A stretch of 37,637 bases of DNA, from assembly GCA_026417495.1 (NCBI GenBank), contig JAOADD010000001.1:1-37637 (forward strand), written 5' to 3'. This document shows positions 5,912 to 9,942 of this stretch, piece after piece. This stretch comes from Ignavibacteria bacterium (lineage in GTDB: Bacteria > Bacteroidota > Ignavibacteria > Tepidaquicellales > Tepidaquicellaceae). The notes under the pieces were generated by a model. It had not been told where the DNA came from. It ran no database searches and worked only from the letters and a program-made list of their open reading frames with translations. Numbering within the stretch: position 1 is the stretch's first letter; every line of letters begins with the position of its first letter. The translations under genes and the position numbers were made by a program.

Positions 5912-7594
5912 ATGGAGAAATTAATTGATACAATTATAGATTTAATTGAAGAAAATAAATATAAAGAAGCATTATCTGAATGTTCCAAACTTGTTTTTCA
6001 TTATCCGCTTAACCCACTTGGTTATGAACTGAGAGGTGATTGTTTCTTGTATTTTAAAAAATATAATCTTGCATTTATTAATTACAGAGAAGCTATCAGT
6101 TTAACTAATGCAACTGATGTTAGGAATAGGAATAGTTTATCTTTGTTATATAAAAAGAAAGGGATTTGCAATTTAAAAACCAGAAATTTCAAACCTGCGG
6201 TTGAAGATTTTACAAACTCGATTAATTTTAATCCTGATAATTATGAAGCATACCATTTACGCTCTAAAGCTCTTAGAAAAATTGGGGATTATGAGTCTGC
6301 TTTAAAAGATGCAAATAAAGCAATAGAACTATTTTCAGAGTATGCTGAAGCATATAATAACAGAGGCTGTATTTATTATATGACCAATAAACCAGATGAA
6401 GCAATAAAAGATTTTACTAAAGCAATTGAGTTAAAACCAGATTACGGAGGGGCATATTATAATAGAAGCCTTGTTTATAAAAACATAAAAAATGATTTGC
6501 AATCTGCAGAACAAGATTTGGAGAAAGCAGAAATTTTTAGAGCGCAAAAATCACAGCCACCTCAAAAAATAAAAATTACAAGAACAGAAGAAATTAGAGA
6601 ACAAGATAAGATAACTTCGTATGAAGAAAAGAGAGAGAAGTTTAGCAATATAACAATAGATGAAGGGTTGAAGCTTTCTGAGGGTTTATTCGAAAGTTCA
6701 GAATCCAAACCTAACGTGATTGAGTTGAAAAGCACTAATAAAGAAATTGAAGAATCAGAGGGAAAATCATTTTCAGATATTTTTGCAACAGAAGGTAAAA
6801 CGGTAGACCAAGCAGAGGAAGCAAATTTAAATAACTATGCAGTGGAAGAAGTTCTGGAAGCTAAACATAAAAGCGAAAATTTATCATCACCGTTTACTGA
6901 AACGCAAGAAGGGAAATCACTTGAAGATTTAGTTTCCGAAGTAAAGATACCGGAAGAGTTAAAGGAATTACATAACCAGATAGTGCTTCCCCCACAAGAA
7001 GAAACAAACCCCAAAGAAGAACCAAAAAAAGAGAAATTAATCAGAGAAAAACTAGAAACCAAAGATAGTAAAGAACAAGAAAAAGAAATTCAAAAGAAAG
7101 ATTATAAAGAAAAACCTGAGCCTAAACTGTATAGTAAGTATTTATATGATGAACCAAAGAAAAATTACACAACCCTGTATTTTATTATAGGTATTTTGAT
7201 TTTATTGTTTATTGTTGGGGGTATTTTTTTAGTGAAATTATTGCAGAACAAAACAGAAACAAACAAGCAAGTAACAACTGAGACAGGTAAGAAAATATTT
7301 GTAATTTATGAAAAAGGAGATTCTAATAAAATTACAGTGAGCGAAGATTTTGAAAAAGTTATGTCAGAAAAAGGTCTAGTTCTTGTAGCAGTTGATAGTG
7401 GATTTAAGTTTCAAGCTGGTTCATTTAAAGACTCAGTGTATGCAGTTTCAAGATCGAAATGGCTAGAGGAACAGGAATTTGAACCAGAAATACAACTTGC
7501 AGATTTAAAAGATAAGGGAAAGTTTTATAGAGTAAGATTTGGTGATTTTAAAACTGTTGAAGAAGCAGATTCAGTTGCAAGAACAATTAAATAA
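5912..7594 (+). CDS. TPR - transmembrane - SPOR domain protein
   Basis: 560 residues in four parts. (1) About five or six TPR repeats at 5-205, for example YNNRGCIYYMTNKPDEAIKD and AYYNRSLVYKNI. (2) A long charged, probably disordered linker at ~215-415, rich in Glu and Lys. (3) One membrane helix at ~418-441 (YFIIGILILLFIVGGIFLVKLL). (4) A C-terminal SPOR domain at ~490-560 (FKFQAGSFKDSVYAVSRSKW ... YRVRFGDFKTVEEADSVA). SPOR domains bind glycan strands stripped of peptides at division sites, so the TPRs should be cytoplasmic and the SPOR domain periplasmic. Only 14 bases separate it from the next gene, which carries tandem HU-like domains, so the two are probably one operon. The protein ends right at the end of the SPOR fold. 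The pairing suggests a cell-wall/chromosome or division role; the partner interaction is inferred. Confidence 0.85.
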   Translation: MEKLIDTIIDLIEENKYKEALSECSKLVFHYPLNPLGYELRGDCFLYFKKYNLAFINYREAISLTNATDVRNRNSLSLLYKKKGICNLKTRNFKPAVEDFTNSINFNPDNYEAYHLRSKALRKIGDYESALKDANKAIELFSEYAEAYNNRGCIYYMTNKPDEAIKDFTKAIELKPDYGGAYYNRSLVYKNIKNDLQSAEQDLEKAEIFRAQKSQPPQKIKITRTEEIREQDKITSYEEKREKFSNITIDEGLKLSEGLFESSESKPNVIELKSTNKEIEESEGKSFSDIFATEGKTVDQAEEANLNNYAVEEVLEAKHKSENLSSPFTETQEGKSLEDLVSEVKIPEELKELHNQIVLPPQEETNPKEEPKKEKLIREKLETKDSKEQEKEIQKKDYKEKPEPKLYSKYLYDEPKKNYTTLYFIIGILILLFIVGGIFLVKLLQNKTETNKQVTTETGKKIFVIYEKGDSNKITVSEDFEKVMSEKGLVLVAVDSGFKFQAGSFKDSVYAVSRSKWLEEQEFEPEIQLADLKDKGKFYRVRFGDFKTVEEADSVARTIK

Positions 7595-7608
7595 AGTTTA
7601 ACAGTATA

Positions 7609-9942
7609 ATGAACAGCACAAATTTAATAAGTAAAATTTCCGCTAAATTCAACATAAGCAAAAAGAAATGTGAACTAATTTTTGATAAAATATTCGATGG
7701 AATTAAAATGAGCATAAAAGAAAAGAAAGAATTTAATGTGGAAAATTTTGGTAGCTTTAAAGTTGTAAGGCGGAAAATGCAAAAAATGATTGATTATAAT
7801 AAAAAAGCTGTTGTTTTGTTACCACCAAAAGATAAGCTTGTTTTTTACTATTTCAATGGAGTTGAAGAACAAAATGTTGAACAAAAAAAGAAAGAACTGC
7901 AAGCAAAAGAAATAATTAAAAACATTGCAGACGAATATAATATAAACGAAATTGAAGTATACAATTATTATTACACTTTATTTGACATAATTAAGGAATG
8001 CTTTAGGAAGAATATAAATGTTAATATTTTAGAGTTTGGGAAATTTAAAATATCAGGTAAAGGGAAAGTAAGTTTTTCTCCTGCAAAGAAATTTCAGGAT
8101 GATATAAACTACAATTTTAATAATCTTGAAACAGTAATTATCAGAACATTAACACCGACAGAGTTTGCATCACTTACTAAAGAAGAAGAAAAAAGAATTT
8201 TAGAAGAGACAAAAGAAGATACAGCAATAAAAGATACATTTGAGATTGAAGCACCTGTTGACGAAATTACCGAAGAAGAACCTTATGAAGAACAGGAAAT
8301 AAAACCAAAAGAGGAAGTTATCGAAGATTTATTGGATAGAGAGAAAGAAATTATTAAAATAGAAGTGGAAGAAATTTCAAAGAAATTTGATGAAGAAAAG
8401 TTAAGATTAAAAGAGGAAATAGATGAATTAAGAAAACGAATTGATTCACTGGAAATTTTAGACAAGAAAATTCGTGAGTTAACTGAATTAGGAATAAAGG
8501 GTTTAGAAGAGAAAAAAGAAATAGAAACTCCAGAGGTTATAGGAAAAGAAGCGCAAAAGGAAGTAACAGAGATAGAAAGGGAAACACAACAAGAAGCGAA
8601 GCAACAGGTAGAAGATTTTGCAGAGCGAGAGCAAGAAATAGAAATGCCTAAAGAGCAAGAGTTAATGGAAATTGAAAAGGAAACCAGAGAAGAAGAAGAA
8701 CAACTTAAGAAACTTACGGAACTAGAAAGTAGAATACAAAAAGAGGAAGTACAGGGGCTTAAAGAAATAGAAGAACATATAGAGTTAAAAGAACCTGAAA
8801 TAAAAATAGAAGAACCTGTTGAGAAGAAAATAGAAGAAAGTTGGGAAGAATCATTTGAGAGAAAATGGAGAGAATTAAGAGAAAAAATATTTTCGACACC
8901 CAGTGAAATTGAAGAGCTGAAACCACCTTCATTAGCAGAAGAGATAACTGAAAAATTAATAGAACCAGAGCCTACAATAACCACACCAACAATAGAGGAA
9001 AAAGCACAAGATGCAGAAGAACAACTTACTGAAACAATAATACACGAAGCACCAACAAAAATATTAGAAGAAAAAGATGCTGGTACAATTTTTGAGGAAC
9101 CTGAACTGGAAGAGAAAGATATTACACCTGCATACCCTGAAGTTTTTGAGGACGAAGATACATTATCAATAAGTGAAATATATGGAAGGTTAAAAGAAAG
9201 CTTCTCTTATATTTCAACTGAACAGGGACAAAAAGAAGAAGATAAAGCAATAATTTCTGAGAAGAAAGGGGATACTCTTTCAACTGAAAAACCAAAGGAA
9301 ATTGAGACAGAGCTTAGAGAGAGTTTTGATGAAAAAGAAGCAATTATTAAGGAAGAACCAACCGAGATAGTCGATACATCTATGGATGATGTAATTAGAA
9401 GGTATGAAAGATTAAGAGAAAAACTTAAAGAGGAATTGATAAAAGATGAAATTTCATTTCCTGATGAAATAATTAGCGAAAAGCCAATTACTCCTATTGA
9501 ACCCGTTCCTGAAGAGATTAAAGATGTTGATCTGAATGGTATTGGAACTGATAATATTACTAAGATATCGGATTTTGACATTTCTGAATTTGATGTGATA
9601 GAGGAAACAGAGGATATTACAACTAAACCCATTTCTTCAATAGAAGACTTGGAAGAAAGAAAAGTAAAAGATGAATTATCAGAATCAATTGATAGAACGC
9701 TACAAGAGATAAAATCTTATATGGATGAAATTGCTAGAAAGGAAAAGCTTCCTCTTAGTAATAGTGAAAATAATATTGAAAAGGAAACACCGTTTAAAGC
9801 CCTAAATGATATAGAACTACCTAAAAGTATTGATGATTATTTTGAACAAATTACCAGAGATAACATTAAAAAGTTTCCCGATATTAATGATGAAGAGAAT
9901 AAAGATATTACTGATGAAGAGAAATTTAAGGAAAAAGAGTGA
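7609..9942 (+). CDS. Tandem HU/IHF-like domains with a long acidic Glu-rich tail
   Basis: 777 residues, no membrane segment or signal peptide. Residues ~1-88 read as an HU/IHF-fold domain: two helices (LISKISAKFNISKKKCELIF, DKIFDGIKMSIKEKKEF), then FNVENFGSFKVVRRKMQKM, a short arm and LPPKDKLVFYY. Residues ~96-175 look like a second HU-like copy with little or no arm (IIKNIADEYNINEIEVYNYY, VNILEFGKFKIS, VSFSPAKKFQDDINYN). The remaining ~600 residues are extremely rich in Glu, Lys and Ile, with coiled-coil stretches (for example EKLRLKEEIDELRKRIDSLE), and the rest is low-complexity and probably disordered. Double HU-like modules resemble the HU-CCDC81 proteins of Bacteroidetes, which usually carry their own membrane helix and SPOR domain. 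Here the SPOR domain is in the preceding gene. DNA binding is plausible for the first copy but not shown. The gene abuts lnt, with the two stop codons directly adjacent. Confidence 0.75.
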   Translation: MNSTNLISKISAKFNISKKKCELIFDKIFDGIKMSIKEKKEFNVENFGSFKVVRRKMQKMIDYNKKAVVLLPPKDKLVFYYFNGVEEQNVEQKKKELQAKEIIKNIADEYNINEIEVYNYYYTLFDIIKECFRKNINVNILEFGKFKISGKGKVSFSPAKKFQDDINYNFNNLETVIIRTLTPTEFASLTKEEEKRILEETKEDTAIKDTFEIEAPVDEITEEEPYEEQEIKPKEEVIEDLLDREKEIIKIEVEEISKKFDEEKLRLKEEIDELRKRIDSLEILDKKIRELTELGIKGLEEKKEIETPEVIGKEAQKEVTEIERETQQEAKQQVEDFAEREQEIEMPKEQELMEIEKETREEEEQLKKLTELESRIQKEEVQGLKEIEEHIELKEPEIKIEEPVEKKIEESWEESFERKWRELREKIFSTPSEIEELKPPSLAEEITEKLIEPEPTITTPTIEEKAQDAEEQLTETIIHEAPTKILEEKDAGTIFEEPELEEKDITPAYPEVFEDEDTLSISEIYGRLKESFSYISTEQGQKEEDKAIISEKKGDTLSTEKPKEIETELRESFDEKEAIIKEEPTEIVDTSMDDVIRRYERLREKLKEELIKDEISFPDEIISEKPITPIEPVPEEIKDVDLNGIGTDNITKISDFDISEFDVIEETEDITTKPISSIEDLEERKVKDELSESIDRTLQEIKSYMDEIARKEKLPLSNSENNIEKETPFKALNDIELPKSIDDYFEQITRDNIKKFPDINDEENKDITDEEKFKEKE

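Follow-up and report, generated by a model that had tools for sequence, protein, structure and literature searches.

The window analysed in this study, a stretch of 37,637 nucleotides (nt) from an Ignavibacteria bacterium (assembly GCA_026417495.1, contig JAOADD010000001.1), carries a pair of genes on the + strand whose products combine tetratricopeptide repeats (TPRs), a SPOR domain and two HU-like modules. The upstream gene (gene 1, 5912..7594, 560 amino acids (aa)) encodes a TPR domain, a transmembrane (TM) helix and a SPOR domain and is called TPR-TM-SPOR below; the downstream gene (gene 2, 7609..9942, 777 aa) encodes two HU modules and a long acidic tail, without TM helix or SPOR domain. 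The two are 14 nt apart. Open reading frames (ORFs), Pfam matches and the hydropathy scan by which TM helices were called agreed with this arrangement, as first described from the sequence in a first-pass annotation. The gene pair is a real, reproducible and derived variant of a known, apparently uncharacterised kind of HU-TM-SPOR (HU-CCDC81-like) protein.

Gene pair and domain structure

Pfam curated cut-offs were exceeded by both the TPRs and the SPOR domain of gene 1 (SPOR, PF05036, 29.0 bits against 21), and AlphaFold2 (AF2) modelled the TPR solenoid and the SPOR domain with confidence, joined by a TM helix and a linker of low confidence. The TPR domain (residues 1-212, 5912..6547, pLDDT about 90) lacks a signal peptide and is presumed to be cytoplasmic. 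The hydropathy scan placed the TM helix at residues about 423-441 (7178..7234), and the AF2 helix spans residues 420-445. Two short motifs lie in the linker. KSFSDIF (residues 285-291, 6764..6784) is also present in linkers of HU-TM-SPOR relatives, and the putative LH docking motif IPEELKELHNQI (residues 346-357, 6947..6982), recognised by a motif hidden Markov model (HMM), is predicted to form a short helix, modelled at residues 348-358 with low confidence.

The glycan-binding residues of the RlpA SPOR domain are Q270, R309 and R311 (PMC6895207); by alignment, their positions in the SPOR domain of gene 1 (residues 490-560, 7379..7591) are occupied by Q501, R540 and R542. The last beta strand of the SPOR domain is absent from gene 1, where the chain stops after helix 2 (profile positions 3-65 of 76), and in its stead the AF2 model shows an additional N-terminal strand (residues 490-494). 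The SPOR domains of the TPR-TM-SPOR relatives also stop after helix 2, without the usual final strand. Judging from the model, this may be a permuted SPOR variant.

In gene 2, HU module 1 (HU1, residues 1-81, 7609..7851) is the counterpart of a separate small HU gene of relatives, and HU module 2 (HU2, residues 92-180, 7882..8148), which has a short arm, is the counterpart of the N-terminal module of their HU2-TM-SPOR proteins. Both exceeded the Bac_DNA_binding cut-off (PF00216, 52.6 and 28.6 bits against 22.4), and the AF2 model of residues 1-190, built from an alignment of 12 rows, contained two confident HU modules (pLDDT 87, pTM 0.78), so that the HU fold proposed for both was borne out. 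Since both modules together matched single-chain IHF (Z 13.3, root mean square deviation 1.9, 116 residues) and the tandem-HU chains of ciliary doublet microtubules (Z 10.7-13.2), they model as one HU/IHF-like pseudo-dimer. A gliding-motor chain of Mycoplasma mobile was also matched (Z 13.9). As a side observation, several chains of PDB 9io5 (R-W; the M. mobile G1-ATPase dimer) match the tandem-HU pseudo-dimer, with 13.9 as the best Z, and their copy number would fit GliD, for which an origin from F1 b/delta has been favoured (PMC11864180).

The acidic tail (residues 186-777, 8164..9939) comprises about 590 residues, 32% of them D/E, and has a net charge of -99; no membrane helix was detected in gene 2 by the hydropathy scan, in agreement with the initial description. 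The tail carries conserved short motifs, and its end (residues 727-758, 9787..9882), which contains KSIDDYF, is conserved across the three genomes of the window's genus (g1) and was found only there; motif models built on the g1 tail gave no convincing match in relatives. The ratio of nonsynonymous to synonymous substitutions (dN/dS) indicated purifying selection on both genes, with a value of about 0.2 for the tail against genome G002, where dS is near saturation.

Distribution in relatives

Of 99 relatives searched, 47 gave a match; 40 loci were fetched and domain-mapped, and the gene neighbours of 18 of these were mapped. The comparison covered the window's family (f1), its sister family (f2) and the more distant family f12. 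The nearest named relatives are Ignavibacteria metagenome-assembled genomes (MAGs), and genus g1 comprises the window and two other genomes, including the complete single-contig genome CP054675 (isolate Ch128a), which is 72% identical to the window over the HU region; the other genome is 48% identical there. The gene pair, whose conservation the first-pass annotation had made a test of its proposal, is adjacent in 3/3 g1 genomes at an HU-region identity of 48-73%. The gene lnt comes next after the HU gene or genes in most f1 loci read, including the window.

The commonest arrangement among relatives is a small HU gene of ~90 aa followed by a gene for HU2, an acidic linker, a TM helix and SPOR (460-1060 aa), often with overlapping stop and start codons; it occurs in f2, f12 and the f1 genera g4, g7, g12 and g15. 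Genera g5, g6, g8 and g9 hold a complete HU-TM-SPOR gene plus a TPR-TM-SPOR gene upstream (the TPR end runs off the contig in g6), with room for a GAF-domain gene usually present between the TPR-TM-SPOR and HU genes. HU2-TM-SPOR is thus one chain in most relatives, whereas TM and SPOR are absent from gene 2 in 3/3 g1 members, and a TPR-TM-SPOR gene directly followed by a fused HU1-HU2-tail gene occurred only in these three genomes. In five genera (g2, g10, g13, g14 and g16) the HU pairs lack both TM and SPOR at the locus, and there is no TPR-SPOR; in g2, g10, g13 and g14 the SPOR proteins remaining elsewhere are RlpA-like, where read. Fusion of HU1 to HU2 is seen more than once, in g1 and again in g10/g14.

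Several further observations were made at these loci. In many f1 members a GAF-domain gene of ~165 aa immediately precedes the HU gene (L038:6995-7492 and equivalents); in g1 it is missing from this position. At one f12 locus (L056:7371-10872), the HU and HU-TM-SPOR genes are directly followed by ExbB/TolQ-like, ExbD-like and TonB_C genes, a neighbourhood that suggests a link with energised envelope machinery. Two f1 MAGs (L040:5295-7836 and L044:7635-10383) have an HU-TM-SPOR gene broken into HU2 and TM-SPOR frames, which may be either sequencing errors or further natural splits. Locus L089 (G016:C3) contains a 484-aa open frame with a glycosyltransferase-like front, a TM helix and SPOR.

Origin of the TPR-TM-SPOR gene

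The order of states was read from an RpoB tree together with the domain maps of the 40 loci and gene order. Separate HU and HU-TM-SPOR genes are the simplest ancestral state on this tree; TPR-TM-SPOR arises in the clade of g1, g5, g6, g8 and g9, and the HU chain parted with its TM-SPOR on about three occasions. Genus g16 lies near the base of the TPR-SPOR clade with its placing unsettled, and the states mapped on the tree are those of genera other than g3 (G004). A simple split of one gene is ruled out, as TPR-TM-SPOR coexists with a complete HU-TM-SPOR gene in g5, g6, g8 and g9. The earlier view that the DNA-side and wall-side parts had been separated stands insofar as they are on separate genes in g1, but the SPOR gene did not originate as a fragment broken from the HU gene. 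Because four sister genera hold both forms, duplication followed by hand-over fits better than a split.

TPR-TM-SPOR most likely arose as a copy of the rear part of HU-TM-SPOR, with TPRs substituted for HU2; the duplication itself is what we infer from the following comparisons. Searched against whole genomes, a TPR-TM-SPOR profile matched the HU-TM-SPOR proteins of G005 (E 7e-35, profile positions 214-620) and G013 (E 1.6e-27, profile positions 280-616), both from TPR-less genera, and the matches span the linker, the TM helix and SPOR. The SPOR domains of TPR-SPORs have a mean identity of 0.24-0.39 to the HU-SPORs of TPR-less genera and 0.19-0.25 to those of their own clade, the two comparisons being equal for G001.

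The LH helix motif, I-[PS]-[DE]-[DE]-[LIV]-x-x-LH-x-EI, occurs in nearly every TPR-SPOR read. Searched with an HMM trained on TPR-SPORs alone, the HU chain carries it in 13/13 f1 members without TPR-SPOR and in 0/12 with TPR-SPOR; some of the LH scores are weak (E 0.004-1.5), with an alignable LH core visible by eye. The same HMM found the motif at the C-termini of short HU2 proteins that have neither TM nor SPOR. The Q/R/R triad of the SPOR glycan site follows a similar pattern: it is complete in 12/12 TPR-SPORs and in 6/6 f1 HU-SPORs of TPR-less genera, and intact in 1/9 HU-SPORs where the genus has TPR-SPOR as well. It is present in 9/10 f2 HU-SPORs, and the last Arg is absent in f12 (0/6), so the glycan-triad reading is confined to f1 and f2. 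A second motif, K-S-[YF]-[DSN]-D-[IV]-F (the DIF motif), is found in the linkers of both protein types far more often than shuffled sequences would give; the conserved end of the g1 tail contains a similar string, KSIDDYF. Genome searches with the DIF and LH patterns gave no further convincing coding carrier in the window's genome.

Discussion

The best explanation of the whole, to which we assign a probability of roughly 0.55, is that the gene pair is a two-gene derived form of the Bacteroidota HU-TM-SPOR envelope system that originated by duplication and hand-over. In the relatives, HU2 of the HU2-linker-TM-SPOR chain would pair with the small HU protein as a single HU heterodimer that is connected, across the inner membrane, with peptidoglycan at the septum. 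Both the pseudo-dimer model and the HU1-HU2 fusions of g1 and g10/g14 suggest such a heterodimer, and by analogy with established SPOR proteins the SPOR domain would direct the membrane protein to denuded glycan at the septum. One clade would then have acquired a second gene, in which a TPR domain takes the place of HU2 ahead of the linker, docking motifs, TM helix and SPOR, after which the HU chain would have lost its LH docking helix and most of its SPOR glycan-binding residues. In g1, the HU chain would finally have lost TM and SPOR, and HU1 and HU2 would have fused into one chain. The HU pseudo-dimer would act as a cytoplasmic scaffold, and we infer that the g1 HU-HU-tail protein is brought to the envelope, presumably at the division site, by TPR-TM-SPOR. 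Recruitment might be direct, from the TPRs or the LH helix to the HU chain, or indirect, by way of a common partner recognising the LH and DIF motifs.

Several results weigh against this explanation. BLASTP with low-complexity filtering found no similarity between the g1 tail and the linkers of relatives, and the linker similarity in the TPR-TM-SPOR profile matches is partly compositional. On the tree, the complementary LH pattern traces back to only one or two independent changes, too few for an independent-pairs test of TPR-SPOR against LH loss, and the SPOR-domain tree, built to date the duplication, left its deep forks unsettled. Moreover, five genera retain the HU pair with no TM-SPOR partner at the locus, so that its function does not require a SPOR anchor.

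A more specific form of the proposal, in which the LH helix of TPR-TM-SPOR docks in trans on the HU pseudo-dimer, or on a partner that formerly read the LH helix of the HU chain, is tentative and in our estimate rather doubtful. If true, a one-chain link from HU to the septal wall became a two-protein link, and its stages are kept in living genera: duplication, docking-helix loss, glycan-site decay and membrane-anchor loss.

An unlikely but serious alternative is that the two genes are neighbours without a physical link, so that TPR-TM-SPOR alone took the envelope role and the HU-HU-tail protein, its TM and SPOR gone, acts elsewhere in the cytoplasm and is evolving toward the state of the sister clade, whose HU-HU proteins are short and soluble. 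The anchorless HU pairs of g2, g10, g13, g14 and g16, the RlpA-like character of the SPOR proteins left in the first four and the roughly three losses of TM-SPOR on the tree are all what this alternative would lead one to expect. However, the short HU2 proteins retain the LH helix, whereas the g1 HU chain has lost it and the neighbouring gene has it. The g1 tail is also still long, with conserved short motifs and under purifying selection, and the genes have stayed side by side throughout the genus.

Improbable, in our assessment, is a nucleoid-to-septum tether of the kind first envisaged, in which the HU pair sits on DNA and the acidic tail docks on the TPRs of the SPOR protein. The HU fold and the match to single-chain IHF would suit it, as would the basic HU1 of the window (net charge +9; HU2, +2), the intact SPOR glycan residues of gene 1 and the VNPKTG arm tip retained by HU1 of f12. 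Against this, no HU1 of f1 and f2, the window's included, has the NP-containing beta-arm tip for DNA bending, g1 has only a very short HU2 arm, and HU2 is acidic in f2; other tandem HU pairs are components of protein assemblies, doublet microtubules among them. With the NP tip lost and the f2 HU2 acidic, a conserved DNA-bending role is not supported by these sequences, and the chromosome side of the first-pass annotation is weak. DNA contact by the basic HU1 of g1 is possible. Finally, an assembly error or frameshift that removed the TM-SPOR end of gene 2 is extremely unlikely despite the broken frames of two other f1 MAGs, as it is contradicted by the recurrence of the same form in two other g1 genomes, one of them complete and all three diverged from one another over the HU region, with conserved tail ends and lnt directly after gene 2.

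HU-TM-SPOR proteins are widespread in Bacteroidota, and the literature searched yielded neither a functional study of these proteins nor a paper that connects SPOR with HU. The staged hand-over singles out the parts that matter, namely the HU pair, the LH helix and the SPOR glycan site, and yields a testable division of labour. From the repeated HU1-HU2 fusions it is predicted that the small HU gene beside each HU-TM-SPOR gene encodes its dimer partner.

Comparison with known systems

The clear HU-CCDC81_bac (PF18175) members of other Bacteroidota are mostly one-chain HU-HU-TM-SPOR proteins in the examples read. Gene 2 gave no Pfam match to PF18175; in a profile-profile comparison, the tandem-HU profile of the window family aligned with HU-CCDC81_bac in register over both modules (E 6.5e-8), and the SPOR regions of the two families also align. 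The kinship proposed in the first-pass annotation is thereby supported, and the fold match to the doublet-microtubule chains points the same way. The two systems agree in the order and register of their tandem HU modules and in having a TM helix and SPOR; they differ in that the TM helix and SPOR here lie on a separate, TPR-fronted gene and the tail is much longer.

Two-ORF pairs of HU and HU2-TM-SPOR also occur in other Bacteroidota (L213, L214, L215 and L217), and their HU2 aligns at E 1.7e-11, including an NxxFxxLEPV extension. Such pairs, from Ignavibacteria as well as other Bacteroidota (e.g., L043, L056 and L213), share HU1 and HU2 with the window and, in f1, the same locus, whereas in the window HU1 and HU2 are fused and the TM-SPOR of HU2 itself is lost. 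As both one-chain and two-ORF forms exist in other Bacteroidota, the HU-TM-SPOR system is spread through the phylum, with its parts repeatedly fused or separated.

The eukaryotic CCDC81-like chains of doublet microtubules share the tandem-HU arrangement, and the HU-CCDC81_euk_1 match of gene 2 is weak, just below the cut-off; there is no shared context, and identity in the structural alignments is 8-14%. Single-chain IHF and HU dimers have the same pseudo-dimer geometry but differ from the window, where the NP tip is missing and module 2 is almost armless. FtsN, DamX and DedD are membrane SPOR proteins with a single TM helix and a C-terminal periplasmic SPOR domain. Gene 1 resembles them in its single TM helix and C-terminal SPOR, and is set apart by its TPR front and by a long acidic cytoplasmic linker that carries the LH and DIF motifs.

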